DNA of 64,000 bases. Origin: Onchidella celtica. Its lineage: Eukaryota > Mollusca > Gastropoda > Systellommatophora > Onchidiidae. The translations under genes were made by a program, and so were the position numbers. Where the stretch lies: the NCBI GenBank assembly GCA_963931925.1, contig OZ007583.1:9963372-10027371 (forward strand), in the 5' to 3' direction. The notes under the pieces are model-generated. The model saw only the letters and a program-made list of their open reading frames with translations. It had not been told where the DNA came from and searched no databases. Of the stretch, positions 12,401 to 61,855 are shown piece after piece (positions within the stretch are counted from its first letter, which is position 1; each line of letters opens with the position of its first letter).

Positions 12401-15400
12401 CTGCAAGGGAAAAGCAATTTACATTAGACCAGTGTTTCTCGAGGTGGGGAGCATGCCCCACCGGGAGGGCTGAGGCAATATTCTGGTGGGGCATTGAACA
12501 TCAGAATGGGGGTTAGTGATATATACTGCATATTAACTTCATCCGATCATGGTGTGGTGCATGTTTTTTTTTTTGATTTTTTTTTAAAAACTGAAGTAGG
12601 GCATGGGACGAAAAAGGTTAACAAACACTGCATTAGATCAAAAAAAAAAATAAAAAATGAAAATCTTCAGATGTGACAGGAAATCTTTAGATAGCAAGAA
12701 CCCCTGCCAAACAAAGTGTTTCAGCCCTTGACTTCCTATCCACTCCAAGTGAACAGATCACAACCCTGGTGTTCCCCTGCAGTATTTTTGGGTTGATGAA
12801 ACTGGACAACTTTCAATTAAAATATTTCATAGCATGAACACAGATGGCGCACAGAACAGAAACACGATCATGAGTTGAATCTTGTAAAACAGTTTCGCAG
12901 GAAATACACCTTTGTCACTGAAACAGTTTGAAACAATTTACTTTCCAACAAAACAGCATCACAAACATGTTCAGACCAAAGGTTAAAAATCAATATGCCA
13001 CATTGTTCAATCTGGTTACAAAAATGCCCTTTTTTTTTTCTTTTAATATTTGACAGTATCCCCAGGTACGTCTGACATGTTGTGCAAATACAAATTTTAC
13101 TGCACTAAGCATATCCAACTGTCTTGTTCCTTATTCCTCTTGCTTGACCTCAATCCTCCCATGTTGTCTCTCTCTCTCTCTCTTTCTCAGCTCAAACTTA
13201 CATCAGCTTAACTTACTCTACCCAGTCACTGCAAAGCCCCCACCCCCCACACACACACACACACACATACACACCTGTTGCATGTGGCACATATTGATGT
13301 TTGATATCTGATTTCTATCTTAACTGTTTTGTTCAATTTTTTTCTTTGATCTTCCAACATTTCTGTTTTGTCTGATTTTCTAGCTGTCCGTTTTGCCCCA
13401 CTCTACCATCTTCAATATCTCCTCCCCTGTTGCTCTCCTGTTCTTCTCATTTTCGCCTACCTACCTTCAATTTTGCGCTGTCCAACTGCAGCAGCTGACT
13501 GCCCGTGACATTTTTCTCCCTGAAAGATTCTATATACTTCTCCATTTCAAGGGCTATTAACCAGTGACAAACATTCTCAGTGTTCCACTCAGTTATGGGC
13601 CCTGACTGGAACTGGTTTTGGCTGCGTTTGTTGGGGGCTGTGTTCTCCTGCAAAAAATTTCATCACAATGTTAAAAAAGCACCAATGACAAGGGGGGAAA
13701 TATGCATTGTGAAATGCCATTCTTTAATTAACTTTAGGGGTGGAAAGTAGAAGAGCACTAAGTGAGGCATAGGATCCCATGGCAAATCATTCCTTCTCTT
13801 GGTGTAATTTATATGACCTTGTCAGATCAAACTGCTCTGTTGCCCTTCTGTTCCTGATTGCTATCTGCTCACTGCTGTTCTGTTGTCAATCTCATCCATG
13901 CTGTCTACTGCAATGAGGCTTAATATTTTTGGTTCTACTGGAAGGCAAGACGTTTGATGTATGTATGCACTGTTTACATCACTGTTATGCAGACAGGGCA
14001 GTGGACAGAATTTGGAGAGTTGGTTGGTCTCAGTATCCTCTGTCAAGGGTGCCACATTATCCCAGACATGAAAATGCACATATCTCCTTTATTTCTAAAT
14101 TTCAAGAGAAGTTACCAAAAGAATCTGCTGGAATTTTTTACTCTCATATTAAATCTGACAGACAACTGATATTCCGCAAATACAAAGACATAGGCTATGT
14201 ATGAATATCCCTCAAAATGAAGACAGTTGTTCAACACTCACAATAAAACAAATAACTTTCATGATACAAAACCTGAAATTTTCAGCAAAATGAATCCCTC
14301 CTGGAAAGGAGAATGCTGCTATCTGTTAGGGACACTGTGCAGTCCTCATGCAAAAGTTAACCCTTTGAAAACTATTGCCCTGTACACCGGTCAAATTCTA
14401 CGGCAATATATACACTATTGACCTGTACAGTGGTCAGAAGGGTGACACCGCATATTTGTGCTCTTACGTCATCAAAAGTTGCTTTTGGCTGTCATTTTTT
14501 TTTCCCAGTTGTAAACAAAGAGAAACTAGAAGCCGGCGCGTAGTTTGGAGAGGCTTTTTGTGAAATTTTCGTGATGAATGCACAGAATGCAAAGTTTTTT
14601 TATGTATCAAACGGGGCTCAACGTGCTGGACCGCCTGGCATACCAACGCCCAATACTGAAGATAAAAGGTAAGAAAAATATTCTATAATACTCACATTTG
14701 CTCCCTATCCATCAATGTTGTGTTTGTTGTGTGTTTCCATCATTATATTGCTATCTATGAAAATGGCAATTTTGGGCTGGGGGACCAGGGACAGGGGTTC
14801 ATAAGGACAGGGGGACCAGTGTTCAAAGGGTTAACTAATATTACTGTTCTCTGCTATGTGTCATAGCACTGCAAAAAGTCTTTGCAAGAACTGATGGGAG
14901 CCAGAATATCTGAATGCTGAAACTTTTTTTTTTTTTAAATCAGTGATTATTGGGGCCAGATGATTTTTGTTTCCACGTTGAATTTTGGGAAAAGCGCAGG
15001 GGTTACATTTAACCCTCACAGTGACTTGGAAATCTGCTTCCAGTTGACCCTCAGCTGATAGGCCTGTGCAAAGCTCCATGAAAACCCAGCAACTTAAGCA
15101 CTAACAATAGAAGATTATGTCACAAACCGTGATATCGGAGGCTTATCAACAAGGCCCTAAGAAGAGGTAATATATATAGTCATGGCCTTTTATCAATGGC
15201 GGACAAGACAGACATGACCATGATACCGTGGGCTTAACAACTAGGGCTGAGGACGAGAGGACCATGATACCATGATCTTATCCATAGTGGACAGGGAGAG
15301 AAAAACCACGATGTCATGGCCCAAAGACTGCCAGGGCTAGGATTATGTTCTGTTTGCAGGCACAATGACCTTTTCATTGGTGAAATGACCACAGTAACAT

Positions 15401-18400
15401 TTCTGGAAGTTGGTCACGGACTTTTCACACACAAACAAAAAGGGCATTATCAGTACATGTATTTCAGCTATATGATCCAAATAGCCTATCCAAAACAGAA
15501 AGTATGACAGAAATGGGAATTTTCACAAAAAATACACACAAAAAAATCTGCCAGACTGTACTTGAGACTAACCTGGGCTGCTGGTGTCCCTGAGATATTC
15601 AATGTGTACTTTCCTGAACCATCTCCTTCTGGTTCACTGACCATCATGGACGACGTGATGTCACTGTTCACGCTGGATGCTGGTGTTCAAGAAATAAACA
15701 AAGTGACATTAATGAAGCTGGCAGATATTTATCTTTCCTAACATAAAACGCAAGAAAGTTCACCCTAGGAAGTGCAGAAATTTAGCTCCTTGATTTTCCA
15801 CTGGAGGAATTCCATTAATTTTGATGTAACAAATCTCCTAGATATACCAGCTATATGGTCTCACTTTAATTTGCTCTTTTAATATTCTCCCTATGGAATT
15901 TCAATACAAGTTAAATGCTCATGTAAAACATGATGAATTTACTCCGTATCTTATTTTTACCATATTTACCCTTCCACTGTGTCTTACACATACTTTTTAA
16001 AGTTCTGTATGGTTCAAGTTCACTATCTTTAGATGCCACACCAACTTCATAAACAAGCTGTACAAAGTGCTGATATGCTTAAGGAATGGGACACAGTAAG
16101 TGTAAGGATGACTGATAGTGTTGCTTCGAGAGTCTCTTCCAAGGCTACAATCACTGACAGATGTGTGTGTGGACATGGAAAAGTTGGTGTCACAGCTAAA
16201 CAGGAACACGTGTGCAGACAGAGACTGACATGAGATGAGTGTACAATGGTTCTTAGATCTTTTGACATGCTGAGAATTGAGGATCCCCTGAGGTGCTATG
16301 GATTCTCAGTGGGATCCACTGATCACTTGTTGAAAACCCTCGATTTCTTTGTAAAACTTTGTGAGTGCAACGAATTTGGAAGTCAGTACATTTCAAAATA
16401 TTTCATGTTAGTTCTCAGAAAGGTAGCTTCATGTGCTACATATCTCATAAATTATGAAAGGAAAACAGTGGTAAGGTACATTTCTAAAATAATTTTGACA
16501 GCATTTTCAAGGAAAAAAGAGTAACAAATACGAGAAATATATATTTGAGAGGGAAAGAATGTTATACATAATAATAATATATAAAATGATTTCACTACAA
16601 GTAGAAAGAATACGAATTGCAGTTTAAGAGAAAGACAGACAAAGACTATTACAGTACTGTAATTTTCAAATTCTTATAAGAAAACTATTTCAGTAATTTT
16701 GTGTGTTTGTATTGCTGGGATTCTCCATTCAATGTGGCTGAAAACACGGGACATGTATCTCTATTTATTTTTAGTACAGCATTTTTATCATTATCACTAT
16801 AAACTGAGTCTTCTCTGAACTAAGTCAGTGCTGGGTCTGTGGATCTAGAACTTGTCAGTTGTGGAAACTGTGTGTCCTGAGACTATATACATGTATATGA
16901 AATATTCCCCATCTTTGCTGGTTGTTAGGGCAGATGCATGTAGAAAATGCTATTGTGCACGCAATGGTCAACCCTGTGAGTTTCTTAAGTAAAGGTGAGA
17001 ACAAATAAATGCTGCTAGAAACAGCATAGAATAATCAAGGCTGATCAAAGCATTATAAATATAATATATAATATACAACAAGGGCTGTAATTATCAGTGG
17101 AGAAAGGCTGGCAATGTTAAGACAGTGACAATTTAGCTCATACACTGGTGATTCATGTTAGACCTTATGGTATATAGAATTCCACATATTTATTCTACCT
17201 GTTCTGGATTCTCCTAGAGCTGAGAATAAAAAAGCAATTTAAAATTTATTTTTTTTCCCAAAGGTCCTCTGATCTCCCATAGGAAATGAGAAAAGAAGCA
17301 CAAATATTACTCACAGAGCTTTACACTTTACCCCTCCCCCTTTCCATCTGAAGTTGTAATTTCTGTGGTAAAAATGTCTACTGCAATAATTTATGCAAAT
17401 TCAAATTTGGATTTTTGGATTTCCCAGTTTCCATCAAACTTAAGTTATTTGAGTGATTGTCTTTTACAGGACATCTGAAAAATAGAAAATTGGACATCCA
17501 TTATTTCCCAGCTAAAACTACTCTTAGTTTCATCCACACATAGGTATAAAGTGAAGTTTTCCATCTCATTGTCAAACCATACAAAGACAAAAATGATTAA
17601 ATGATATTATATTTTGAATTGATGACAGTTTTCAAAAGAGCACTGACAAATACCAGAAAGACAGAAAACAGAAAAGTTGAGAGACAGAGAAATAATGAAT
17701 TCTTTACTTTGCCCATACAGCGACAGTTCAGTACTACACCTGAATGTTCCAACACCAAGATGAAATGCCTTCCTTTTCAATTTTTGTTATATGACTCCTT
17801 GTTAAATACAGCATGCAATTTGGACCAATTTGACATTCAATTAAGATTATAATACACGCACATTACTGTTCTAAACAACAGGGAATCTACATTCCATATT
17901 ATACCCAGGATTACATTCTGGTCTCTAACATAAAGAGACACTCAGATGAAAAACTGCAAAGTAAATTCTACACAGGAAAATAACTCCAAAAGCCAAGCAG
18001 AAAAAGCAAAAGAAATCATTTCTTCCAGGAATATTTAAAACCATCACCAGCAGGTGACTCAATACTATTTTGGTCCACCACAATGGGTGTCCAAAAAAAA
18101 GGATAAGCAAAAACGAAGAAAATAAAAGCTGACAAACTCCAGTACGGAAAATGATACCACTAGCTCAGCTATGACATCTATCTTTGCAGGGTACAAAACA
18201 GATAAACCAAGCAAGTGGTTCATGTTTATGACTACAAACATTAGCAGTGAATTGTAGTGATCTAACTTATGAAATACCACAGTCAACCCAGTACTATATC
18301 AAAAGTTAAAAATTCCATTTGACCAAGAGAGAGAAGCAACAATTATGCTTTTATGAAAACATTGGGGGCATAAAGAAAAGTGCATCTGGAAAGATTTTCA

Positions 18401-21400
18401 CATCTTTGATAGTCTGTGCTTTTCCAATTTGGTGTGATAGCCCCTGGCTATGTGCCATTCACCACTCAGGTTGTACAGATAAGGTAATTAAGTTTTATTC
18501 TTCCACTGATGCCCACTTTGATGAATTTAGATATGCTTGAAATGATCCATTGAAGCCACCAAAGAACTGAGCTGCTAGATGAAAATACACTTTACTTCAA
18601 ACTTTTTATGAATATTGGGCACTGCAAAATTCTTGACATGAGAATTTCAGTTTTTGTGCATAAAAGAAAATGGTATACCAGTGAAACCTCACCAATTACT
18701 TCAGAATTTTGAGGACTTATTCTTTATAGATTTCCAAATCGCAACAGAAAATTGTTACTTAGATTTGTAGCTTTGAAGATTTCTTTACAATCCAGAATCC
18801 CTACCAATGTTACTGGAACGTAACATGTAACAATTTTTTGCTGGTACAGCAGCTCTAGCCCCCATAAGCGGGACAGCCCCATACCCCCGACAACTCACCA
18901 TCATAGTCCGGATAGCCAGTGTCCAAAACTTTTTTGGAGATGAGAGTAATGCCTGCTGAATCGAGCCCCGGGTCAGAGGCAGATTGTTGGTGGACCAGTG
19001 AGCGATTAGACAGTAAAACCACGCCCCTGGCGGTGTCGTCATCCCGCCCTTTTGATGACGGCTTCCAATTGAATTTGGGGAAGCTGAAGCCTGTGTCATG
19101 CATGCATTTTTTAAATATAGATGTATCTTATATGACGGATGGGCAGGGCATTACTGAGTGTTAATCTCTCAAGACATATCAATAAAATTGGGGAGTAACA
19201 TGAGGGTAGAACACTCTGGGTATTAATGATGTTCAGAAGGATGTCTTACAAGGCCGAATATCTACATATCAGAAAGAGCTGATGTCTCAAAAGTGCGTCA
19301 ATGTTCAAGGATGAGTACGGGAGCTATTTCCAAACTCAGCTGTTTGGTTCTTGATGTCAGCAATGTCCAACTGAGCAGGGGATAAATACGAACAGATGCT
19401 ATCGGCAGAGTTTTCAGATATTTCACACACCAACCCCAGTTGTTTTTTTTGTCTTTCTGTCCCCATTTCCCCAGCTAAACTAGATGTTATTACTGCTCCT
19501 AAGGATTTCATGGTCTAAATTGTTATCTGACCTCAGAATCCATCATTCATGCAAATGAAACTGAAAGAGAAATCACTTTTCACTGGAATAAAGCCTTGAA
19601 ATCAATGTCAAATCGAAACAGGCAAAATAACCACAATGACTTCATTACTGAACCAAAACAGCAAAGCATAACAAAATTACTTTTGTCTCATCCATGAATA
19701 TAGGCACACTCAGAGAATACAAGTGTGGATGATGATAATGATGACAATGATGCTGATGCTACCTACTGCTGCTGCTACTTTTCAAGTGATGTCTTGTGTT
19801 GCCTACAATGAAATGTCACTACTTGCCTACTGTGACATCTCCCTCTTTGTGATGATAATGGTAAAAGCCTTATTAATGATGAAGACGATGATGATCCTAC
19901 AACTTCATGGCACTGCAGGTAATGATATAGATAAAAATCTGTGCTATACACTACACGTGAAGCTATTTATTAAAGCATGCTTGCGCTCATCCTGATTATG
20001 CATGTTTCCAAACTATATCAGTACATTTACAATGCTGGGCAAGCTTTCACTAGTTGGGTGATATAACTTGTACATAGGATATTGCTGTCATTGCACATAA
20101 CATCATCCTTGTTCCCCCCATACAGCATAGATTAGTGACCTCAGATACAATGAAATAATGCATCTCTCCCTTAGCAAAGCCTAATAAACATTTAGAGCCA
20201 TACTGAAAATTTACATTCAATTCCATATAAAGTGTACCTCTGATATTACAGTACAGCGGGTTATGTGCTATGGAGGTGATTTTTTGTTCCCTCTTGTTTC
20301 CTTGTTTGTTTTTGTGTGTGTCCATTTGGCAAGGAATTTTACTTGAAAGAAAGCTCAAGGTATGCAATAAAGATGTTGCACTGAAAATAGCACAAGCCTA
20401 CATGGTGAGGGTTTCTTCCACATGCAGTCTTCCCGGTTTCCGTGTGTACTATGCTTGGTAAACATTACATGGCAGAAACTGCACTTTGTTTAATTGGATG
20501 CAGCCTAACACTAGTAGCATTCTGATGGCAAGGGAACTTAACATGTGTAAATTTAAAAACTCTATGTTGTGAGACTGGTACTCAGTCAGCAGGACTGGTG
20601 CTATGCTGGGTTAGGACATGTATTCAAAGACTGGTGGTCTACTTAATAGAACTCATCCTCTATTTGGTAAGATTTATACCCTTAGCTTTCAGGACTGATA
20701 CTCTCCTTATTATTAGTCTCATATGGTTTACTCATTCATTAAGCTGCCCTTACATCTTAACCCAATCTGGTCTTTCTTTTGTGTTTTATGTGGTTGGACT
20801 TAATTCTGTATACAGCAAAACTGGTAATCTAATACTGGTGCTCTGCTTGACAGGACTTACTCTCCTTTTGGTAAAATTTGTACTTATCTTTCAGGACTAT
20901 TACTCTCCTTATTATGAGTTTCTGCATGGTTGACTCATCTCATTCTGCCCTTTTTAATTCTCTCTGCTCTTTCTCTTTCAACACTCCGCTGATCAGAATT
21001 GTCTCAGATGATAATTTTACACATTTCATACTCGATCCATAATTAATTGTTTCACTGCTTACTAAAGCCGATACAGGTGTGAAATTTAATGCATTTACTC
21101 AAATATTCTCACATCTACCTGGCATATAATTTTCTTATAAATTCCACCATAAACATCAAGCTCCAAAGATCCTTTGTTGAAAATCATGTCAAAGATGAAC
21201 TTTTTTTTTTTTTTTTGTGAGAGAAGAAAACCAAGTGCATGATTGCATGACTCCCCATGTGCTTTAGAAATGAAAGTGCTCTAAAGTTGCCAAGAACTGC
21301 TTTGCCGAATAAAGTAAGTGCTCCCATTACTTGAATGCAGCAGAAAGAAAGTTTTATTAAAATTTACAGCAACCAGTATATAACAGAAGAAAACGACCCA

Positions 21401-24400
21401 GTCAGTGGGGGGGCTGCGTGGCACTGAGAAGTGCAGGATAAAGAAGTCCGTAATACTGGCGCGGAGACAAAACTCAGAATCTCTTGTTTCTCCAACCTTT
21501 GTTCTTATCCCTAACTACTGTTTCATTAACACATATGCTTATTAAATGTGACTTGTTGCACAATTAGCACATCTATCGCCTATGAGCGATCATAACTGGT
21601 TATATGGCTGTATGATAAAGTTTACAATCACTACTGGTAGATATTATGTTGTATGGGGTGAAATTCTAACCTCATCAATTTCTATGCTAATTTACAAACA
21701 TATGAGTGAAAAAAACTATGAAACATCATAAACTCAAAAACACAGAACTCTAAACATGACTTTTAACCATGAAAATGACAAAAACACATGTCAAATCATG
21801 GAACAAATTTCGGTAATGTGTATAAATTTGTAGCATGAGGTTTAGAAACAAATCTGGTTCTAAAATGAGAAGAATATCAATGAAATGCATTCTATCTAGG
21901 TTATAGTCACACTATTCTGAACATGCATAAAATGCTGAGTTTAGGCATGGCTTGAGCAGAGGCTTCATCAAAACATGGACAGCTGACAACTAGATGACAG
22001 GCAGCACTCATTCCTTCACAGACAGGAGCATGATGGAAGAATCCAAACTTGCACTACTCACTACTTGATATATACCAACTGCAGTAAACCTATGGATGAG
22101 TGACTGGTCCCAACCCCCCTCACACAATGTTAACACACTATATTGTTATTAATGTGCTAAAAAATTAAGAAACTGAATGAACAGTATAACCCAGCCCCCC
22201 TAATTTTACAAGACAATTAAGTAAAGGGAAAAAGAAACCAAATCAAAAACAAAAAATATACAGTTTTTTACCTCCACATGGCAGTTACACCGAGGGGATA
22301 TGAATGCCACTATTTTATTTACCCATAAAGTCACATTAGGTCCAGTTACCTCATTACCAATCACTCAAATGCCTACAAGAGTTTGCTCCCCTATACAATG
22401 CCTCATCTCTGCCTAGATGCAGGTCCATGGTTTGATCAAGCCTCCTTATTGTACACAGACAGCATGTAATGTAAACAAACTCAACACATGATGCAAATGA
22501 TGTGGTTGTTGTTGCTGTCGTTACTGTTATTATTCACAAAACAAACACAACACTGAGGGTTAGAAACGCTGTTTGACACTTGCCACAAAATTTCGAAAGA
22601 TTCAGTATTTCTACACAGCAAATGTCTGTGACACTTTCTGTCCAGCCATCACTGGACACCCTCTGCTCAGCTCTGCTCAGATTGAGAACTCCACAAAACT
22701 ATGCAAATAATATACAAAATGGCCTGATATCATTCTTCAGCTACCTGCTTTTAGTTTGTTGATGACAATAAATTGCCAACTTTGTGATCAAAACCCATAA
22801 GATTTCACAACAGTAATCAATATCTCACTGAAATCCATTCTGCATCTTGCTCCCGCCCATGTAAAGTCCATTTTGATCAGAGATGTCAGAGCTTTCCGGG
22901 CAAAACTTTTCACTTTTATTTCATCTTCAGATTTTTTTATTTTTTTTTTCAGATAAGAAAAATGAAGATGACAATGGTATGCTCTGAAAGGGCTTTCCAG
23001 TTTTAGTTTTACAGAGCTCTGTTCAATATGGCTTCACTGCGCCTTGCACGATTTACTGTTCAGTGTTGAGATGTCACTCTATTCAGGAAGAGTAAGAGCC
23101 CAGTGTCAGTGCTCTTACCACAGCCATTACATTTTGTGGCAAGTTCAAATTACATGCAAAACAAAATCTGGGCGACGTTTACAAATTAACAAAAACACAT
23201 AAACAGCAGCTCAAAAATACAAATTAAACATAAAAACTCAAAACCACAGAAAACACATGGGCTGATTTACATAAATTTAGAAAGGAAAAAAAAAGTTACA
23301 AAAAAATGATTTGAATAAAACACTTCTAAAATGAAAGTTTGCACCGGCCGAGATTCAACCAGTCAAATCTATGAGAACAAAAGAAAAAATAACAAGAAAG
23401 AAGAGAAAACTCAATACAAACCTTTGGCAGAGGAAGAGGCTTTAGCTGAAACCAGAGTGACTCCCCCATCACTGTTTGTGGAAGTGTCGTCTGCTGCCAG
23501 CTCGGGGATTTCAGAGTTGCCTCCCTTTAAATGAGGTCGGTTGGGGTCGTAGGAGGTTTGTGAGACACAGGAAGAAGAGTCCGAATAGCTGTCCTCTTTT
23601 CTGTGATAGAAGAAAGGTCCAGGTGACATGAATATATAGCTACATTCTAACCTGGAATGACGACATAATGTGATGTTAAATAATCTTCTTGTATATATTA
23701 CTATAATTATGTCCTATACAAATATTCATAAATATTGTATCATCATCCACATGATGAACTGGTGTTCCATTCTGAACTGCATGTTCTGTTTTTTTACATT
23801 TTTGAGATCGACATACCATTAACTTGTTACCCTGAAAGGGATTTCACAAAATTCAAATTATTTTTGGTAAAAATGCATTTGTCAAACTGGCATATCATTA
23901 CAGCAACTCCACCTGGCTTTATTATGACCAGCCTAAGTATTATGATATGCTGCTTCATCATACAGAAAGTTGCCCATTTGGTATGTGAGCATGCATTGTA
24001 ATTGTATGATTGACCAACTACAGCAGTTCCCATGCAATACAAGCATGGGAAACATAACCTGTGGGAGTGGGTATCCTTGTCCCATGGTCACTTTTCTGTA
24101 TGACAAACAAGCATATTGCTCACATGAATGGGGCGTCTCTTAGAAATTTCCTGACAAGACAAAAGGAGGTGTGGGGACGTACACTACCATTTCAAAACTG
24201 GGAGTTTTGGTGATATGGTTCATCACACAAACAACGATATAATGCCATATAAATATATCAAAGTTGACAACAATGTCAAAATGTTCATGTTTTGACAAGT
24301 CTTGACTTTAAATTGTTGGACATATAACTTGTACATTCAACTGAGTAAAATTTATGAAATACTTCTTAGTACTAATCATGTGTCTACATAGTTCTTACAT

Positions 24401-27400: not shown

Positions 27401-30400
27401 AACTGAAATTTAAAATCATACAAGCAACTGAAAAATATTCAAGCAAGCTGGTAACTAAATTCTGTGGCAAAAAAAGAAAAACTGCCAGTTAAACAGAGCA
27501 AAATAATTAGAAAATACCAAAAACTAAGGTAAACATAAAACTATATATAACAGAAAGTACAACAAGAAAACACTGTTAAACGTCAAAATGGCAAATAAAA
27601 CAAACGTGTTTGCACTGCTTCGGTGAGCTGTTAATGTACCAGGGCTGTGAAGAGGCAAATCTAACATGGAAAGCTTTTGGTGACTTGGCATCTTTAGAGC
27701 CACAAAAAGGCTTGGCGTTAGAACAAAAAACAGACAGCAGGCAGGGCAAAACAAAAAAACTGCAGGCCCACAACATAGATTGGCAGGAGCAACCCGATTG
27801 GCTGGCTGTGGTTTACCTAGACAGCTCAGGGGTGGCCAGCTTGACTGGCACTCGTGGCTTGGGTGGCACAGGAGGAGGCTTTATGACAGAGCCAGCCTTC
27901 TGATTGGCTGAGGGAATGGAAGAGGGGGAGGAGGAGTCTGGAGGGGTGGGGAGGGGTTTGTTAACATCGGCTGGTTGCTGTTGCTGCTGCTTGCGTTTCT
28001 TGAGCTCGCTCTTCCTGACAGTGCTGTCGCTGTAGCATACGTAAGGAGAGGAAACACAGGAATCAAACACATGATATACAAGTTTGACAAAAACATAGGA
28101 AATCAAAGCATAGGCTGTCAACATACGCTAAATCAAGATTTTCAACTTTTGTTTTTTCTTATCAGCCCCTCTTGAAGCTGTGCTCACCACCTGTGACACC
28201 TTCTCCCCCCTCTCCCCTGTTCTCTCTCACTCATAGGCATACACACACATCACAAGACTCTGTCATTCAGCAATAGCAACTGAGAATGTGTTCACATTTT
28301 AACCCGAAATTTTCTGTTCCAGCTTGCAACCCCAAAAATGTCTTAGCAAAGCCCATACTGAAAAGAAGACCAGAAAGCTTGGACCCATGGAAGGACCCAT
28401 CCACTTACTGGTTTTGATCAGCTTGTGAACTCACCTACATATCACATTCATAAATAAAGTAGTGTCACTCATATTGATCAGCACTGAATCTACAAGTTGG
28501 TGTTTGTGTATGCGTGTGTGCATGACAAGATCAATAACACTGATAATGCCATAACCAATATACTTCATTTCTAACCAAATCACCAAGCCCTAGTTCTGGC
28601 TTTTTTTTGTTTTTGTTTGTAAGACCCAATCACAAGTTTTCTCGCTACCAGCCCCCTATTTACTCCTGACAACTTCCTTTCGCTAACAAAACAGTGTCAC
28701 TCCATTTGTACCGTAATTTATATCTTCTTGGTACTTCTATGAATAAATTTGTCCACATGAGGAATTCATTCAGAGAACTGAAAAAGTGAAGCACTTAAAT
28801 TTTAGGGGATCTATGACTGACTACCAGTGTCACATTCGCCAATGTTGGCTTCAGATCACATAATTTATGGCATTAAACAGCATGTTAAAAACTACACTAT
28901 TCTTCCTGAAAAGGATCTGTAGGACAGAATGTCCTTACAATTATACCTATTTAATACTTCAATACAGTTACTGCAGAAATATCTCTGCATACGCTATAAA
29001 AATGTATATAAAAATTCTCAACAGCTTCAGAAAAAGAAAGAAAAACAAACAAACAAACAAAACATTTCCCCAGAGTCTCATAAAAATAGCTATGCATCTA
29101 CAGGAAACATCATAAAATTCCTGAAATAAGTAATGCCTGTATCAGCAAATTCGGCATGTCTCACAGGTCAGAGGTCAGTCGCTTCAAATTGCTTTTCTAA
29201 ATCTTATGGAATCACGCTGGAGATGTCATTAACAGGACCCGTGTACAAGGCAAAGACTTGCGCAATTGCTACATGCTAGAGATCAGTATTAAAGATTATA
29301 GGTTGTGTGAACAGAACATGTGAAACATATGAGCCGTATTCTGTAACATACTGGTTTTGACAGATGACACATATTCCTGGAAAAATGTTCCCAACCCCTG
29401 TATAAATTGAATTGAGCTCTAAAGAATCATAGTATCCAGAACAGGAAATCATGCAAAGAGGGAAAAATTTTATGAATAAAATCTGATTATGAAGAAATTT
29501 TTTATTTTTTTTTACAATTTCTGAGGTGAAGCAAGGCTTCCATCTTAAAATGAGGTTTTACAAGACTGATATTTAAAACAAAAAAATTTATGAAAAGATC
29601 ATGCAAGGCATCAAGCTGATTCATGACATAAAACAGAAGGAGAAGGTGCAACATACAGATATACATCTGACAGTTGGCTTTTGGGCACTAAACTGGGGAT
29701 AAGGGAAAACAAGCAATTTGAAAATGAAAATATTAATACTGTCTAATTTCGCTAACTGTAAGACAGGAAATAGGAGTCTGGCGGCAGCAGTGCACCATGG
29801 TGGTGTAGGTGGGTATTACATTTTGCTTATTACATAAGGGTCCACAACCTCACGGAATGATAACTTCAGAGGTAACTTAAAGCAGGTAGGCAAGCCAACA
29901 GAGGGCACTCTGTGACTGCATACACCATTATAAATAACAATTTCTGGCAAGAGTATATTTTAAACTTGCAGACACCTAGTTTTGCTCATTTTTGCTCATT
30001 TTTCTTCCCAAATTCTTCAGAGCAAAAGTTTCTTAAGTAATGGTATTTATTCAATTCAAAACTCTCCTAGAAGAAACAGATCATCAGAAGTAGCAATGGA
30101 AATATAAAATTCATCCGTCCTATGATTTTCCCTTTGAGCAATAGTATTTTCAAAAGTTCGATACCATTAGTAATAGGCATTAGAATATAACACTTCAATA
30201 GAATCCAAAGATACCAATGGAGATATTAAATCACCATTCTGTAAGTTTCTGGAAGCAATAATGAATCTGAAACTGTGACTTAGCCAGTCACAACTGGAGC
30301 CAAGTGATTGCATTGTAGATGTTATCATCCCTCACGTAATCACCGACACAGAGTTTGATCTCGATATAAAAAACAATGATCACAGAAGGGCAGACAAAAA

Positions 30401-33400
30401 TTATTAAAGCTAACTATCAAAGGGCAATAATTCACTGGCCAGGCTGGAAAAGGCAGGATATAACAATCTGTCACTATACCTCCAAGCACTTCAGGGATGA
30501 TACAGCAATTAATGAAACACCCAGCTCATGCACATACATTGTTTCACTGATTACGCTATATACAGAGGCTAATTCTGCTGTTCTGTGCTATGTGAACGAC
30601 CCTACAGTAGATGCTCTTGCACTGAAACATTTCATCTATCTATGACAGAAGAACAAACATCAATGTTCATCATCACCATTTCAGACACTACAATACTGAC
30701 TGATCCAGTAGTCATTCTGTTCTCTTTGCATGTGACGAATCTGGGAGTTCTGACATCTTTAACATTCTGCTTATTTCAGTATTGCTGCAAAAACCTATAG
30801 AAAACTTCAATCCAGCCTTCCAATGCTCAAACCGCAATGTTTGAGCTTTTCCTACAAAGACTGAAGGAATGACATTTTCTGTCATTTAAGCTTACCTAGT
30901 AATAAGCTTAAAGTGCACTGAAGCCCACATAAATCCCAATAATCAGAATAATAATAATAATAGTAATAATAATAAACATCTTTTTAATACAGATGTGCGC
31001 AGGGTGACAAATCCGTACTTTTCTACAATAACAATGAAAGACAATATATAAAAGTATGTTTCAAAGATATGAATATTAGCAAAAAATACAGACAGAACAA
31101 TTAAATGAATAAATATAACACAAGATGAAAACTAAAGACAAACACAAATGAACACAATCAGTGTTGAAAACACTTTCATGTGTCACCAAAACAATGAAAT
31201 AAAAACAATTAAATCCACTGAGTTGCTGAAACACAAGGCGGTGACCATGGGAACTTAAAGAAAACAAAACTTCAGCGTCTTCTCCAACATAACAATAAAA
31301 ATGGGGGATAACAAAGCTTGGACAGCTTGGTTTACTCACATGTTTACAAAGGCAGGCATTCTAGACAACAACAGTAAATGCATGTCATTTCCTTGAATGC
31401 CTAAGGTTCTATTTGTAAACTAAAGTTGTCAAACAATATAACTGAACATTTTACTTTCAATATTTATTTGTTTGGTTCAAGTCTGACTCCTCTTTCTGGT
31501 GGACAGTGCAGGAACAATATATCCTAAATGCATACCCAAAAGTGCAAGAACAGAGACACAGATGTACAGAACTGAACTCGGAAAATATAACAAGATTATA
31601 CAGAGCTCTAGTGTAATTAAGAAGTAATATAGAAATCTAGTTGGACTTTCATTCCAGAAAGGAAGCATTTGAAAACAAATCCTTCGCAATCATTTGAAAA
31701 TAAATCCATACTCAGATTAAACTGTTTCATAAAATGATGGTAATTCCTACTATTTATTCTGAGACATCTTAATGAATTTAAATGATATAAACACATGTTG
31801 CTTTTCTTACACAAACTGCCAGGTCTGCTTTGTGTTGTCAAATCATAAATGCAACTCATTTCTGTGGGGAAAAGATATTGCTACTGGGTGTCCTGAATCT
31901 AAACTGCTCTGCTTTCAAGCTAGACTTGAGATGTTTCACCTGTAGTCTTAAAAAATTACACTTTACATCAAATGAAAGGTGACCAAGCTCAACACTCACT
32001 ATACATACTTCACTTAAAGTAAAATGTTACTTTATTCCCAGCCTTGCTGCCATCCCACAGATTTTCTGTTTGTTTTTTTTATATTGTACTTAAGTTGAAC
32101 ATTTGCCTTATCAAACCGTGACTAACCTTCATAAAATTTCATAAACTATAACATTCAAGTTAATACTGACATGGTCTGAGGCTGAATAAAAAACATCAAC
32201 ACACCAATATCTCTTTGAATTAGCAAACATTTCTAACTATAAGTGTTAATGTATAGGAAACATCAACATCTTTTTAAACTGGCAAACTTTTCAAACCATA
32301 AGTGTAAATAAACAGCAGTACTTTTACAAAGTTTAAAAAAAAAAAGGGAATTGTCATATTTTCTTAACTGGACATATGCAAGTGCAAGAGAATTTTCAGT
32401 GTGGATCAAATACCTCAGACAGAAATCAGCAATTTGCTGAAACAATAGAAATTCCTCATCTTCACGGAATACAAAACAACCACAAACCAATGAAAATACC
32501 GAGCCAGAAATTCTGAACACATATTTCCACATAGATCAGTTGAAACAAGGAGACATGGTCAGAAAGAAAAAAATACATGTAAGGCATTCCTCTCTATACT
32601 ATCACTCACACACAATTTGCCGATACTTACGTCGACCCTCTAACATTGGTTTGATTTTCAATTACAAAGAGGAACATGTGTGTTCAATGATGACAAAGAC
32701 AATTTAGTCTGAATTTGGCAGAATTTAGAAAAAAACTGCTGGGAATTTTGCTGTTAACTCAATGTTAAGATTCAACATTCTGGCAAGAATTGATTCCCAA
32801 ATAAAGTTTCATATCTTCACAAGTGAAGATTTTCCCAAAGCTTCTACTACACTAACACTGCTTAAGTCTCATTGAGTACCAGGTAAAATTTGGGTATCCA
32901 GTCTTGAATGTTTCATTCTGCCTTCAACTCAATGTTTTCTACATTTCTTAAGTTTTAATATTCTTCAACATTCTGGCAAAGAATTGATTCCCAAAAAAGT
33001 TTCACTATTCTCATTGGTAAAGATTTTCCCAAAGCTGCTTCCATGCAAAGACTGCTGATGTCTCATTTAGTACCTAATAAAATTTGGGTATCACAGTCCG
33101 GAATGTTTCATTTAACTTTAGTCACACTGATTCTTTCAAAGCTTCTCAGGTATCAAGATTACTTTGGATAATACGATAATACTGCAATCTTCACCGGAAG
33201 TATTCAAAAACAGTTTCTCTTCATATTTCAAAATTATTCCAGCAAAATTAGGATGTTTGGGAATAAAAAGGTTTAAATTTTTGTTCCTTCATCAAGGGCT
33301 GAAAGTTAAAAAACAATTCCACTTTTGTAACAAAGAGTAAGATTTGAATTAGAACCAAGGTACGGTACTTCAAGATGTGAGAAAGTATGCTCCAAAACTG

Positions 33401-36400
33401 CCTTTCTGGAATTTTCCCATGTCAAAAACTTTCTTCATCTATATCAAATTGCAAAAAATGTTCTTCATTGTGGGACTGGAATAGATTCATGCATGTGCAG
33501 TTGCCAAGAAAGATATTCAAGTTTGCTGCAATTTGACTGTCATGATCAACAAAGGCACAGCAAAGGAAGTCTTATATCTCAAGACACGACATCTAAAGGG
33601 AACTGTCTAGGTTATGATGCTATAGTGGAAAATCCAAGCATTAGGGGTCATCTTGTCTACAGTTTGAAAGCTCTGAGGTAGGAACTGCGGTGTCGTGGGG
33701 AAAAAATCTTGCCATTTATGTCACACTTCTACAATGGAATGCCCACACACTATGTCATCTTATCTACAATAGAAAAACTCGGCAGTACTGTGGGAAATCA
33801 ATTATATTTTATGTCATCCATCATGCTACTATGAGAAATCCATACACTGAAGTTATCACTGAAGACATTATAAAAGCTTTGAGCTGGGCGCTGCAGTACA
33901 ATGGGAAATAATTCACCAAAAAATGCACTGCAATTTCAGTCCCTTCCACTTCACTCATTTTTCAAGGTAAAAGACCATCAAGGCACAATTTTAGCATTTG
34001 GGCACCCAGCCTGTCTTGCATACATATAATACTGCCGTGCAAAGGCAGAGCGACATGTGTGCTCATTTCATAGTTTTGAGAAAAACACACACAAAAAAAC
34101 GTACGGCATAGCCAGTCTACATAATATATGTTGTCAGCTACATTGTTCTGCCTTTGCACAGCAGAATAGACTTGATATAAAGTCAATCAGACAAGTCTCA
34201 CCAACATTCAGCGTCCCTGGGGGCTCTGGACTGCTAAGTAAATCTTACATGTAATCATAATTTAGAATTAAAGCTAAAGGAGGCACACTCCAGAATTAGG
34301 CTTTGGTCAGTATTTACCTGTCGTGTTTGTTCCACATGTCCAGTCCACTCTCTGCTTGGTCAGTCTGGCTGCTGTGGACACTGCCATTCTCTGTCACTTC
34401 ACTCTTAATGCTGCTGGAGTCTGGCTCCTCCAGGGAGTCTTGACTCTATCAACAGAATACAGAGGCAGTGTCAGAAATCATAAAAGCTCAGGGTATTTAA
34501 GGTTCAACTCCTTCACTGTCACAAGCAAGCAATGCCATGTCGTCACTGCTCTGTGCTAATGGCACAAGTCATATTTGACACTTGTGAGTTATTAAGAAAA
34601 AAAGTTCCTTTTCCTGACATTCGGTGACTAATGCCATTATGATTCTATTGGATTATTACATTTTCCAACATTTCGTTTTCAATAATATTATCTGATAGTC
34701 CTCATGCTCACAAATGCAATATACCGTCAGCTGCCTTTTTGCACAAGCCTTACTTACTGCTGAGTAGTGACGATAAGCTGAGGGCAACACAGCAGTTGGT
34801 AAATGGTACAAATAACCACAGAACTTGTCAACAAATTGCAAATTTATGGGGGATATTATGATGAAATTCATCACCAAGACTCTTCAAGTATTACTTTTTC
34901 CAATGTCATTGTAAATGGTTTTGTCAGTAGTATTGACATTTTCAGAAGGTCCAGCAATTCTCTGGGCTGCAAGTGTCTGGTGTACAAGCTTAGCCTGGAA
35001 ATTTCAGCCTATACTAGCCTTTGTCTGTTTCACCCCTGACAATACAGAAATATCTGCCACTTGGCGCTCATGAAGCAAAGGCTCACCTTCATTTTCTTGG
35101 TAGGAGGTCTTCTGTTAGCATTGCTTCCAGCAGAGGCAACATTGGCCTTGTCTCTGCTAGCTGAAGAGTCCAGGAGAGGGGAAGAATTCACCACAGTGTC
35201 AAACTCTGACCTGAAACCCAACAAATGCACAAATACGGTGTCAAATTCTGCCCTGAAAGCCCAACAAATGCACAAATACAGTGTCAACTCTGCCCTGAAA
35301 GCCCAACAAATACACAAATACAGTGTCAACTCTGCCCTGAAAGCCCAACAAATACACAAATACAGTGTCAAATGCTGCCCTGAAAGCCAGGCAATGCCCT
35401 GAAAGTCCAATAAATACACAAATACAATGTCAAACTCTGACCTGAAAGTCCAATAAATACACAAATACGGTGTCAAACTCAACACACACTTTAACAACAA
35501 ATATCACAGCATTCAGGACAAAATGTTACTATCACTTCTGAGAAACATTATATTAAGTAGGCATTAACCCTCTGGGACCTAGTGTTCCGTCCATATTTGA
35601 AAATGTCACCTGTGAAAACCAACTTCTTTACTTGGAGCACATTTATCAATAAACAAAATTTCTGTGGTAAATATGACCTATTATTAATATTTTATTTTGC
35701 AATCATTTGACCAGTTTAGATCAGTTTCCTGAGTTTCAACTTTAATTTTTTTTGGACAAAGCAATCTGTGTCTGGGCAACAGTGGGTTATTAAACTATGC
35801 TTTGGGCAAATTTTTTGTTTGTATGTTCTTCACCCTGGCAAGCAAGTCATCTGGCTAATGCCCTCCTCCTTCTGACACCCAGCATTAATTAACCCTCCTA
35901 TATGTTATGATGTAGAATTGACTTCTTTTTTTCCATATTCAAGCACGAAAACTTTGGTAACGAAACAAAAGATAGAATGCTATGAAAATGACTTCAGTTT
36001 GATGTACTGCAGATGACAGACTTTCACAGACAGCTGTCCTAGATTCTGTTGATTAATTACAACACTTTACAAATGGTGCTCACATCCTATAAATCGCATC
36101 TTAAACAAATCTCTACAGAGACTACACAACAGTACTGTCTTCAGTTAACAAACAAAACAAAGACTTAGAAAACAAAGCAAACGTTCGAAGTTTCAGTCTT
36201 GCCCCTACACTGGTCTTCTTGGGGCACACTGGTCTATAGGCAAAGTGTTTGCCTCTCTTGCTGAAGATACCGTGTTCAGTTCCTGGTCAGCCCAGGCATG
36301 TTGGTGATTTGGAGGCATTTCCTGTCCCTCATCCTATGGCAGGTAGAACAGAGCCCCTAGACTTTTCGGATAAGGACGAAAAACTCGGATGACCTGCATG

Positions 36401-39400
36401 CACATTGCGCATGTTAAAGATACCTTGGCGTTTGGAAGTCTAGAAGAGCAGGCAAAATTTAAAAACAAACAAAAAATAAACTGAAACTTGTCATCCCCCC
36501 TGGGATCAAACTAGTATAACATACAAATACAACAAGAAGAACAAACAAAAAAAAAAAGGGACAAGAAAGTGAGAGGTGCACATGCCAAGGGCAGAGATCC
36601 CCCCAAAAACGAAGATCTCATCACAAGTTTCAGTCTTGCTCAGAATGCCCATACTTACGCAGCAGGAGTTTCTGTGGCTGATGATGTGTCGGAGTTGACC
36701 TCTGGCTCACTGGGAGCTGAGGATGACACAACAGGAACTTGTTCCAGGGACACAGCTTCTTCAGACACTGCGGATAGAACAAAATACAGAAAAACTTTAT
36801 CTCCTACTTTCTCACATCTACATCTCAGCATAATGCACTGTTTAGAGCAAGGGTTGACAAAGTGTTCAATATTGACCCCTGGGGATTGATGTGGCTATCC
36901 AGAGGTCTATAAATGTCCAGGGTCAAAAGGGAGTCAATAAAATGTAAACAAATTTTTAATGTCCTTTATCAATTTCTTTAAGTATTCTCTTTACATTTCT
37001 TTGAAAATATCTTATCAAGAAGCAGTAATGAAGTAAAAGGGTGAAGGAATTATTATCTCTAAATTGAGAAATTTATTACTGATAACATTTCTTCATTTAT
37101 TTTACATGATGGGAGTTTGTCAAGGGATCAAGGATTCCATGAAGGGTTCCATGGTCTATAGTTTGCTGACCCCTGATTAAAAGCAATCAAGTGATATGTC
37201 AACACTCAACGAAAAATTGCGATGCCTCTGAACCCCGAATACCTGATTTTCTCTACACCATACCCCTGACCTGCATAGCTCAGGTAACAAATGTTGGGGC
37301 ACTCCGCACCAGTCTACTGGTGGACAAGGTTCATTGGGGTAAAAAATAATGACAAACGGTAATGTTTTCATAACTTCTTTCCCAGTCACGTACACTGCAT
37401 TTCCATCATCAACGTAAAATGATACATATATTTATAAATTTGGAGAGGTTTTCTTAGTTAATTCTCCGTTATTACCATTCCTTTCATAAAAATTCCTTTT
37501 TTATACCTGTTTCTGTGATAAAACTAAAGACAATCTGAAAGAAAGTAATGGATTACTGACCTGGTGAACCTGCTGGGTCTGAGATCTCGGAACAAGTGGA
37601 AGATTCCAGAACATCCTCTGTGGACTGGTTCAGTGGAGACAGAGGTTCTTCTGTGATAAAACAATAGACATGTAACATTGAAATGATGGGGGAAAATGTC
37701 TTATCAATCTCTCACAATACTCAGTTACTGGGTGCCAACTGTCCCCGTTTCCTAAAACTGTAGTAATCGCTTTTTGGCTACTTTTCAGGAGAAGTATAAA
37801 AATGTTTATTTTAGCACAACTGATCTAATGACAACGAATTTTTAGCACAATTGATCTAGTAACGCTGAATTTTCCAAAGTCTGTTTTTATTATTTTTCAG
37901 TTTAAGAGTTTGTAATGAAAATCATTCTGTGTGGCTTTGAATATAGTTGAATTTCTCAATTTTTTGAGTTACGATAGTCTTAGGAAATGGTGACGAAATA
38001 CGACTTTTACTTAAGTCTTTGACTTATTGTAACTGAAGACATGGGTTTTATGCATAACTGTAGACATTGGTCTGAATTGTGAATCAAAGAAAGAAGACAA
38101 GGGTCTGAAATGTAACTGGAGACATGGGTCTGGGGATCTGAGGATGTCATAACTGAAAACGATGACCAGTCTCACCTAGTCCATTCAGTGTGGCACTGAC
38201 AAGTGGAGTTGGCTTGTCTACTGGCACTGGTACTTCAAACTCTTCCATTGTAGGCAACACCTGGGGCAAACCTGCAGTTTTCTGAGCTTCTGTTAGGTCC
38301 TTCTCTAAGGTGAAAATCTGAAATTGGAGGAAATCATTATTAAATTCCATTGGCACAAACTCTTGAGATGAAAATAATTATAGTGAATTTATTTACCAAT
38401 TGAGGGGATTAGAATTAGAACGGATCTAAACGCCTTTTGACTGCTTTTGAGAAAAAAAACAAAAACCATTTCAGTATCATTTTCAGATCCCTTCCCTAAC
38501 CAAATTACAAAAATTATGCATTTTTTATACAAATTTATACAATTCTTTCTCATGTTTCTCAGACAAAAATTCTTCACGGCTGTTTACTACAATAGCATAC
38601 ACGATGTGAATCACCTTCCACTATAACATGCCCCTAAAGTCTATTTATTGTGACAAAATTTGCTCATGATCCCAAGATTCCCGGTAAAAATTTAAAATTC
38701 TTATCATATTTCAGAGATCTACAGTAAGGTTGCCCATGGATAACTCTTTATTGTCAGCTTTGCCATGAGTTATCTTACCCTGTCTTTCAGTGACTTGACC
38801 AGAGAATTGTACTGTTGGTCTTTCTCGGATTGTTGCTCAAATAAAGATTCCCTCTCTTGGATGAAATCTTTCTCCCTGGAAACAAATGGATATTGAGAAA
38901 TAAAATTGTGAAACAGTTGTTGGCAGCCAATCATCAGATGCTTCAAAGACTACACAATACTTTACAAAGCAATGATAAAAAGTATGTAGATGCATGAACC
39001 TCTGCCGTAGTGCTGAGCAGACTTGCTTTTGAGTGATCTGGATATTTGGATCATCTACTTCAACATATCTGGATATCTGGATCATGATCTAAACTTTAGA
39101 CCAGTTAAGAAAATCAGGTTTGGATCCTCGGTCTGCAATAAAGCACTTTGTCATGCCGAAAAAAAAAATCTTTAAATATTTAATCTGCCAAACTGCATCA
39201 TTACAGAACGAGCCTCTAATCTAGAATTCGAAAGGCATGTCAGAAGTGGGTCGCAAATGGATCGCAATCTGGTCATCCATTTGTATTTGGATGACTAGAC
39301 TGACCCATTTAACTGGAAATCTAAATCTTGACTCTCACCCAGCACTACTCTGCAATGGAGTGTACTGGTCCCTAGATCCAAGGACTTTTGAAACATCAAA

Positions 39401-48400: not shown

Positions 48401-51400
48401 CGGTTAAACTGAACACTCCTCAAAACTTTTCTTCAGCATTGCCAACCAATCCTAAATTCCACAGTGAATCTTTTCATGGGCTAAACTGTTGATTACAGCA
48501 AGAGATGCTTTAAAAAATGCATCTGCCCCTAATACCCATACTAATTTAATGAAAGGCACAAACTCAAAAATAGTTTCATGTGAATCTCAGGTAGTCAACT
48601 GTTATATGTTTCTCTACTTTAATAGCTGCTCCTAATGTGTGTATCAACACAACTAATCTGAATATCTCATTGTATCCTTGAGAAATTGTGGCTAAAAATG
48701 ACCCCAGGCTCAGCAATATAAGTGAACTTAAGGACTGAACTGAAAAAGCTCAAGGAAACTTATGAACACCATCCATTTTCATGGCCGGAGCTATTTGTTT
48801 GTTTGTTTTTTGTGGTAGAAAATAAAATTTTGCATTCTGAATCCACACAGGTCCACATAGTATGAAATAATAGTAGGAAACTTCACAAATGATTCTCCTC
48901 CCACTGGATATACAGTATCAGCCCCTAATCCAAACGGCAACCCCATCTCACTACAACTCCAATGCACTAGAAAACCCATTACATCAACCACCACTGTCAA
49001 TACACCTAGACCTGCCCTTTGCACATATTAGTACATCTCACTGCCTACTGGTAGGTATACAGACTGGCAAAGGCAGGTCTTCCCAATGTCATCTCTGTCA
49101 GATGAAGTACTCAATCTGTCAAACATTCCCCAACAACTACCACTGATCTTGTACAAACATCCAGAAAAAAATGCTGCAGTGCTACAGTAACTTTCAAGTG
49201 ATACACTACCTATACCACAGACCAACAACAGTTTGAGATCTTCAAGTTCACACCTTGTAATTATGGTGACAGGGTCCAGCTAATTAAATTTTAAAAAATG
49301 AGAACCAGGAAAATTACATATAGTTACGATCATAGCATATAACAGACTTAGGCCAAAAGGCAATTGACTATTAATAATAATAATAATAATGTATAGCATT
49401 TATATAGCGCATATCCATTTAAAATGCTCTATGCGCTTTACAGAAACAACATGTCAACCACAGAGCAGAATGGAGCTGCCGGCGAAGCGCTCAACACACT
49501 GCACTGCTTCTTTCTCTCTCCCTGTCTCGCTCACTCTCTCTCTCTCTCTCTATCTCAGAGCAAATTGTAACGCAGCCTGTTAGGCGCAGTTCACAACTCA
49601 CAACAGTTCACAACTCACAGCAGTTCACAACTCACATCAGTTCACACAACACACAACTCAAATAATATTTGAATATTTATTAATAACAATATATATTTAA
49701 TAATGAATAATAAATTCTGGCGGGGGTGATATGGATAACTTTTAATCTATTAATTTCAATTTTCAATTTTGCCCGGGCAGCGGCCTTTCGGCCTGCTCTT
49801 TACGATTTCCAACTGCCAAGGTATCTTTAACGTGCGCAACGTGCACACGGGCCCTCCGAATTTTTTCGTCCTTATCCGAGAAGACTAGGTACTCGATCCT
49901 ACCCCCCAATAGGACCAGGGACTTGAAAATATGAGAAAAATCCAATTTCCAACATGCCTGCACTGCCGGGGTTTAGAACCCGGGACCCTTGGCATGAGAG
50001 GCGAGCACCTTGTCTCTATTCATCGCAATCCTGAGCACGAGTACTTCCAGATAATATTGTAGAAAGAGAAGTGCTACCACAGGATAACCCTACAGACTCA
50101 TACTGTCATAGTCACCCAAATGACAGGAAATGAAAGTTTTTTTTCCTCAATATCCCAAGTGTCAAAAATGACTTAACCAATTAGCTTTGAGCAGCGACGA
50201 CATTATTTGCAAGTCCTGTAACTCCACCCCATTTTCTCAGCGCAGTTTACGGTAGCCAGCGCCTCTAATTAAAAAAAAAAAAACGCCAATAGAACAAGGT
50301 AAGGCGCTCGAATTGGTAGTAGCTGGCTAGCGTAATCAGCCGCACAGCAGCTATGCCTTGCTGTTCATCACTCAATCAAGACGTCGCCCTCGACTCGGGG
50401 GGGGGGGGGGGTGTAGTAAGCAGACTCAGGGTGAGGAGACCTACAAACAGTCAGTTCGTGTGCCATACATGCCGCAACTGGCTATGCCATAGAAAGATAT
50501 GCATCACCCACTGGGACATGGGACTCGAATTCTATCCAGCATAAAATAATGAAAACAAACTGTCTAACTTTCCGCGAACCAACAATGGCTATGTTTTTAG
50601 GACAGTGATCCCAAATTCACTATAGTTACCAATACAATGCATATTGTCGCATAATAAATATGCTAATATCGAACACATTTTTTTTTTAAAAATGACACTC
50701 CATAGATTAACACGATACATATAATATGAAACTGCGGAAATGTCGGGGGTCGGTGGTTGGGGTTGCAAAGTCCTGTAGCAGTAACAAAACAAACAAAAAA
50801 TCTACCCAAAAAATCTACATGAAAATACAGCATGGAAATAAAAAAAACAAAAAACTGACCAATTCATCAAAATAAGTTTGCAGGAAAGGTTTCCCGGGTT
50901 TATTAAAATGCTCAATGGCCTAAATCTGAATATCTCACTTGTGCCGATATATTTTACTACAATAATATATTATTTCCAGATGAAACTGTGACGACGTCAA
51001 CTCGTATGTGTCAAGCACTCTGATAGGAAGTTTGAACCTCCAGTTAGCAACCACAATCCAAACTGTGCAAAGCAATCACAATCCAGCCTGAGCAATAGTA
51101 TGCATACCAATTTCTATAAACAATCCAACCAAACTGCATGAACTACACAGGGTTTTGAGCCACGGCATTATGAGCCATATATCACCGACAGTCTTACAGA
51201 TCCAAGATCTACATATTAAAGATCCCACTTGAGCTAGGCACATCTAGTATCTAATACTTATAGACAACTATACTGAGAGAAAACTATATCGATAGATACA
51301 GATAAAAATACCGATCTTTCACTTTGAAAAATATACTGATAGACAATCACGCCGAGCTTTTACTTTGAAATATATACTAATGGACGATCACACTGGGCTT

Positions 51401-52152
51401 TTACTTTGAAATATATACTGATGGACGATCACACTGAGCTTTTACTTTGAAATATATAACTTATGGACGATCACACTGAGCTTTTACTTTGAAATATACA
51501 CTCATAGACGATCACACCGAGCTTTTACTTTGAAATATATACTCATAGACGATCACACTGAGCTTTTACTTTGAAATATATGCTCATAGACGATCACACC
51601 GAGCTTTTACTTTGAAATATATACTGATAGACGATCACACTGAGCTTTTCCTTTGAAAAAAAAACTTATCCTGAAAACAGAGAATCAAAATTTCACACAG
51701 ATTATTGAATTTTTTTTCCCCTCACTAATACGCGGCCTGTTCTTGCCTAGAAAACCTTAAACTGGTCCCAAGCTGAAGAGACAATGCCGTTTGTCCACAA
51801 TCAGCCCAGGTTTAAATATCCCCTGGTCAGCCATGACCTGCTGGGGTCGGGCCAAAAACTGAAGGAATAAAACAAGACATACAACACAAACTATTCCTTG
51901 TCAAATGAGAGACGCAACTGACCACTTGATCACAATAAAGGTATGCAGCGCTTCGGGGGGGATGGGGCCTGGGAGAAGGGGTAAAAGGGAGGAGAAGAGT
52001 ATACGTAAAACTTGAAAGGGGAGGGGGGAGCGCTGCGGTTGGGAGGAGGAAAACCGCCACAAAAGAGATGTATGAAGGTTGACCAAAAAAAATCTCGTTT
52101 CATTGGAAAACAAAAGGTGCCGGGAGGGAGTATGTACATGGGTGGGGGGGGG

Positions 52153-61373: not shown

Positions 61374-61429
61374 CTGCAGATGGGGAAAAACAACAGGACA
61401 ATATAAGCATAAAAATTACAGCGTTTTGA

Positions 61430-61855
61430 TCACATTTCTTTGGAACATTTATTTCTCAGCATTGGACCTTCACTGCCAGCAGACAGAAAGTAGGATGACG
61501 TAAACACATGATTTAATCACATTTCTGTACCACATTTCCTCATTTCTCAGCAGTGGACTTCGACTGCCAGCAGACAGAGAGTAGGATGATCTAAAAACAG
61601 AGTTTGATTAAATTTCTTTGGAATATTTCATTTCTCAGCACTGGCAGTTCATTCATTAAATACAGAAAGTAGTGATATACAGAGTTTCACCAAATTTCTT
61701 TGGAACATTTCTCCACTTATCAGCACTGGACCTTCTTTCATTGAATACAGAAAGTAGTGATATATAACACTGTTTCACTAAATTTCTTTGCAACATTTCT
61801 CCACATATCAGCACTGGACCATCACCACCAGCATACAGAAAGCAGATGTTGTAGA
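61430..61855. repeat. Tandem repeat, about 85-105 bp unit, 5 copies
   Basis: Units share ATTTCTTTGGAACATTTC, TCAGCACTGGACCTTC and ACAGAAAGTAG(T/G)(G/A)ATG. It starts about 60 bp upstream of the first PDZ exon in transcript direction. Confidence 0.85.

Follow-up and report, generated by a model that had tools for sequence, protein, structure and literature searches.

A minisatellite that copies the 3′ splice site of an exon in a neurabin/spinophilin-like gene

Splice-site-spanning repeats and the neurabin locus

The closest described counterparts of the array reported here are the 'mirages' of lancelets, tandem repeats that span an intron–exon boundary. In a lancelet globin gene, two haplotypes carry six and three such units, and RT–PCR suggested that splicing is undisturbed (PMC3087553). 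Imperfect tandem repeats over splice sites have also been described in lancelet PGBD5, in a report that cites Adh and troponin C (PMC3902484), and unit lengths of 10–72 bp in Adh3 and 150–160 bp in BflGb6 have been reported for lancelet mirages. Among human genes, UBC and VCX3A have dual-specific splice sites in tandem repeats (PMC10809524), and introns and splice sites have been found to arise from tandem repeats (PMC2812944). Tandem alternative splice sites form a related class (PMC8055015). The literature searched, which takes in few subscription journals, yielded no report of mirages outside lancelets.

The array studied here lies in a neurabin/spinophilin-like gene within a 64-kb stretch of genomic DNA (the window) and, judged by its units, has the anatomy that defines a mirage. 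As in lancelets, the units span an acceptor and place copies of its AG in the intron, the inner units appear homogenised and the end units diverged, and the 42–43-nt unit falls within the reported length range. The array also adjoins an authentic exon in register, as read from the phase continuity and coding score of the genomic DNA. It differs from lancelet mirages in that the gene is a neurabin, that three 42-nt steps keep the reading frame and that the exon start is itself donor-like (AG/GT, the slash marking the junction). The resemblance to UBC and VCX3A lies in the AGGT at repeat copies, which could act as both 5′ and 3′ splice site; unlike in those genes, AGGT occurs in the two outermost copies only, the array is intronic rather than coding, and the candidate intron is not a multiple of the unit. 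With the introns and splice sites from tandem repeats in human genes (PMC2812944) and with tandem alternative splice sites (PMC8055015) the locus shares repeats that bring in or activate closely spaced sites. Those cases were established from transcripts, the neurabin array from genomic sequence.

Should the host turn out to be another animal than a lancelet, the neurabin array would widen the range of mirages beyond that of the reports cited here. As a single locus known from its sequence, it would be a modest addition to a phenomenon already described. With near-identical acceptors that differ mainly in how far they lie from the exon, it offers a natural experiment on the choice that the spliceosome makes between equal 3′ splice sites, and on the ways in which alternative splicing or new introns can be seeded by tandem duplication. 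Zhuo et al., in 2007, reportedly described introns and splice sites derived from tandem repeats in human genes.

Host gene, exon and array anatomy

The minus strand of the window carries part of a neurabin/spinophilin-like gene. We searched the window with an approximate full-length human neurabin-1 sequence. On the minus strand, this probe matched two PDZ exons at 61.3k (E = 1.8e-12) and 60.7k (E = 1.6e-11), further exons at 47.4k (E = 0.002), 42.2k (E = 0.52) and 40.0k (E = 2.8e-4), and the SAM domain at 13.6k (E = 1.0e-10) and 12.4k (E = 0.024). From 61.3k to 12.4k these matches are collinear with the gene order; two more (E = 4.9 and 9.4) lie on the opposite strand and out of order. When the exons of the window are joined, a neurabin-type PDZ domain (Pfam PDZ, 1.3e-13) and a C-terminal SAM domain of the neurabin-1 type (Pfam SAM_2, 1.2e-15) are present, with stop codons after the last exon read. 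The top PDB matches of the joined exons are Neurabin-2 (7.3e-41) and LP20995p (entry 4xhv; 2.8e-40), the latter being fly spinophilin; HMMER bits likewise place Neurabin-2 first, at 142.0 versus 140.1. By PDZ identity, the fly chain is the nearest of the three compared (71/81 with 4xhv, 59/81 with neurabin-2 and 61/80 with neurabin-1); this points to an invertebrate host, perhaps a protostome, and so possibly to a phylum other than that of the lancelets. For the N-terminal actin-/PP1-binding region, the probe gave no match before residue 510 up to an E value of 10, and the window includes just ~2.6 kb on the upstream side of the gene. A 454-codon open frame (55844–57205, minus strand) in the interval from the 60.7k to the 47.4k exon encodes a reverse transcriptase (Pfam RVT_1, 2.3e-15), probably of the non-LTR type.

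The exon that adjoins the array (35087–35210, minus strand) is 124 nt long, encodes 41 residues and falls after the coiled coil and ahead of the SAM domain. It is entered in phase 2, its first G completing a codon begun by GC, and is left in phase 0 through the donor AAG/gtgagc. The preceding exon (36659–36767, minus strand) reads GC/gtaagt at its end, and its phase matches the acceptor at 35210. Phases are continuous over the exons at 40.1k, 38.9k, 38.3k, 37.7k, 36.8k and 35.2k, the ends of which were picked by eye. Since the next recognised exon (28029) requires phase 2, at least one small, unfound exon should lie between it and the 35.2k exon. Incompatible phases of the flanking exons are seen for two introns of the minus strand, 27817–35087 and 13647–23422, so that each should hold small exons that went unrecognised. 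Coding potential was scored by codon usage, tabulated over 564 codons in 12 further exons of the gene, with 2000 open 123-nt stretches away from the 13 tabled exons as controls. Exon 35210–35087 scores +8.6, a value equalled or exceeded by 28 of the 2000 controls, and its other two frames score −6.9 and −27.9. The exon is coding-like, and the array is not.

The array occupies 35193–35480 of the minus strand and comprises seven acceptor copies including the authentic one. TRF divides it into a part at 35193–35388 with a period of 42, 4.6 copies and 92% matches, and a part at 35398–35480 with a period of 43 and 1.9 copies. A full unit consists of ~18 nt of exon start and 24–25 nt of T-rich intron end with TTTCAG. 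Upstream of the authentic acceptor, three 42-nt units (35211–35252, 35253–35294 and 35295–35336) lie behind acceptor copies at 35252, 35294 and 35336, use of which would add 42, 84 and 126 nt, in frame and open throughout. A 43-nt unit (35337–35379; acceptor 35379, +169 nt) and a truncated unit of 19 nt (35380–35398; acceptor 35398, +188 nt) are out of frame and meet a stop. The outermost acceptor copy, 35441, has another 43-nt unit behind it (35399–35441; +231 nt), is in frame and open, and has the junction CAG/GTCAGA, which is donor-like too. A partial copy farther upstream (35442–35480), starting GAGTTTGACACCGT, gives acceptor 35441 its TTGAC motif. All of these units are read on the minus strand.

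An earlier note on this DNA had placed the exon in a neurabin-like gene, with its phase, and this assignment is supported by the domain matches and by phase continuity. The note had also described a repeat spanning the acceptor and the first bases of the exon, which TRF and the comparison of units confirm. The four acceptors that it named (35210, 35252, 35294 and 35336) are at the right positions, are spaced by 42 nt and each end in TTTCAG, and the frame entered from the preceding exon is open through all of them. Its array is real but ends at 35480, not at 35474, and three acceptors upstream of its four had been missed: the frame-breaking, stop-containing 35379 and 35398, and the open, in-frame 35441.

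The basic unit looks like one of 43 nt rather than 42 nt, the shorter length arising because of two different 1-nt deletions. In the exon-proximal copy the base is lost from the tract (GGGTTTCAG versus GGGCTTTCAG); in the copies at 35294 and 35336 the loss falls in the exonic part (GAGTTGAC versus GAGTTTGAC). The four full inner units are identical to one another at 38–41 of 42–43 positions, and the outer copies (35441 and the partial copy, with the 19-nt copy excluded) match the inner units at 34–38 of 42–43. With few units and touching ranges, this points weakly to homogenised inner units and diverged ends, as in concerted evolution. A direct repeat, GAGTTTGACAC(C/T)GT, marks both ends of the array, the downstream one of which falls inside the exon. 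At the junctions, the inner copies read AG/GG (CAG/GGCA) and the two outermost, 35441 and 35210, AG/GT (CAG/GTCAGA). The 22-nt core of the unit has five matches in the window at up to three mismatches, all five of them in the array, and none in 100 shuffles; the array and its acceptor duplication are far beyond chance.

Acceptor strength, coding potential and origin

The acceptors were scored with a matrix built from 14 acceptors elsewhere in the gene, with the sites in question left out. The authentic acceptor at 35210 scores 6.4 and the six upstream copies 3.7–5.7; the gene's other 14 acceptors, scored by leave-one-out, span −0.4 to 11.3. The same 6.4 is reached by an out-of-frame AG at 35205, which lies five bases into the exon. 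Of the strand's 4035 AGs, some 3–8% do as well as these sites, and the scores alone therefore mark none of the sites as used. The branch-point consensus is YTNAY, which TTGAC fits. This motif lies in the exonic part of the unit, ~32 nt before the next AG, and is present without an intervening AG for five of the six upstream copies and for the authentic site; of the 14 acceptors elsewhere in the gene, 9 have a YTNAY motif at least 15 nt upstream and clear of AG. Each copy is thus a plausible candidate 3′ splice site, to which the authentic one would be only slightly superior, and given the similar scores and the TTGAC motifs, sequence by itself eliminates no upstream acceptor. Microexons within the units were considered and rejected, as the donors they require (GTATTT) score only −4.4 to −0.5.

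The open frame of the array has a simple explanation: the exonic part of the repeated unit is already coding. Mock units stayed open in 73.5% of 20,000 cases when the middle was shuffled, in 59.8% of 5,000 cases with random 19-mers, and in 9 of 14 cases with the tails of the gene's other acceptors. With 60–74% of mock units open, the open frame is not beyond chance. The would-be 126-nt insert from the three nearest in-frame copies has a codon score of −21.2, which 1441 of the 2000 non-exon control stretches match or beat; this suggests that the array has not been maintained as coding sequence. Codon composition and the chance level of the open frame together led us to reject coding selection on it.

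The array is probably a minisatellite of the mirage type, born by tandem duplication of the intron–exon boundary. If the acceptor of the ancestral boundary was flanked on either side by GAGTTTGACAC(C/T)GT, these direct repeats would have allowed slippage or unequal crossing-over, by which the units multiplied and became partly homogenised. The spliceosome would use mostly the exon-proximal acceptor 35210, leaving the upstream copies as decoys or cryptic sites. Low-level use of 35252, 35294 and 35336 would result in in-frame additions of 14, 28 and 42 residues, and that of 35441 in an addition of 77 residues; 35379 and 35398 would give rise to frame-shifted RNA. Array copy number would be expected to differ between individuals.

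Additions in multiples of 14 residues had been foreseen by the earlier note, and 35252, 35294 and 35336, being in frame and open, could provide them. A stronger version, in which the copies are functional alternative acceptors, regulated or stochastic, and yield isoforms with 14n extra hydrophobic linker residues over a range set by the copy number, seems to us unlikely. Four upstream copies are indeed in frame and open, and the sites are similar in strength, each with its own branch-point-like motif. However, an open frame is expected anyway (60–74% of mock units), two of the six upstream copies break the frame, and the insert has an intron-like codon composition and would place hydrophobic residues, with C and W, amid a polar linker. 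What stands of the earlier interpretation is the gene, the exon, the duplication and the in-frame copies; the intron-like codons of the insert and the two frame-breaking copies speak against a standing role in the protein.

We give less credence still to a dual-specific or recursive use of the outermost sites, in which CAG/GTCAGA at 35441 and 35210 would serve as acceptor and donor alike. Because AG/GT is present at both, the array could be removed as its own 231-nt intron, which would neutralise the decoys. As donors, both sites score 8.7, within the top 0.6% of the 4036 GTs on the strand, but the donor matrix consists of 13 sites, among them the donor of the 37.6k exon, CAGGTCAGT, which is alike and itself scores 6.3 when left out. 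The exon of the gene that ends at 37561 has what we read as the donor CAG/GTCAGT, and introns with a length that is a multiple of the surrounding repeat unit are reported to be enriched in human tandem repeats (PMC10809524). Against this, 231 is a multiple of neither 42 nor 43, GG stands at the inner copies, the host intron measures just ~1.4 kb, and GTCAGA is merely the start of the exon as well, so that one of the two copies comes free. An assembly artefact, or mis-placed copies of a dispersed satellite, strikes us as the most improbable account. The draft-genome version of one lancelet mirage haplotype does appear aberrantly assembled (PMC3087553), but substitutions and distinct indels set the units here apart from one another, and the unit core is absent from the rest of the window. 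A dispersed satellite or transposon as the origin of the 42–43-bp unit was rejected, its 22-nt core having no further copy in the window at up to three mismatches.

A second array next to a PDZ exon

A second, more diverged minisatellite (61425–61824, minus strand), with periods of 91 and 88 in TRF, adjoins the PDZ exon at 61253–61373 (minus strand), and sequence comparison shows the acceptor of this exon to resemble one unit of this 88–91-bp array. Two of the five listed units contain CTGGCAGT, which in one of them continues as TGAAGGTCC, resembling the exon start. The last full unit reads TGTCTGCTGGCAGTGAAGGTCCAATGCTGAGAA and the real PDZ boundary CATCTGCAGGAAGTGAAGGTCTAGGCCTGAGCA, an ungapped match of 24/33. 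Of 126,536 33-mers taken from the window beyond this region, none fits the array as well (best 23), the 33-mer of the boundary having been picked post hoc. The gapped score of the PDZ1 acceptor is reached by 12 of 2526 hundred-base control segments and by none of 1000 shuffles. The distance between the TGAAGGTC of the last unit and that of the exon is ~103 nt and exceeds one unit. On these mixed statistics, 61425–61824 is a probable second boundary-derived array that copies the acceptor of the PDZ exon.

We compared 15 acceptors and 13 donors of the gene with their neighbouring introns in a scan for boundary duplications, in which the acceptors at 35.2k and PDZ1 alone were conspicuous; a general recurrence of such duplications across the gene is rejected on this count. 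Their junction scores of 25/30 (35.2k) and 23/30 (PDZ1) are reached by 9/300 and 15/300 random positions, neither being extreme. Gapped scores, computed for acceptors only, are 81 and 28, and are reached by 0/60 and 0/55 control windows. A wider proposal holds that boundary-spanning minisatellites are recurrent in this genome (2 of 15 acceptors) and not confined to lancelets, and that the outermost AG/GT copies turn the 35.2-kb array into an incipient intron in its own right, one that could be spliced out by itself and so protect the protein from changes in copy number; taken as a whole, we regard it as doubtful.

Another minisatellite, with a 41-bp unit and 8.3 copies, lies at 51316–51660, between the 60.7k and 47.4k exons, and no adjoining exon was recognised there. 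On the plus strand, a 211-codon open frame at 3927–4559 is without a Pfam match above the cutoff, contains a stretch that by eye looks transmembrane-like and is possibly an exon of another gene.
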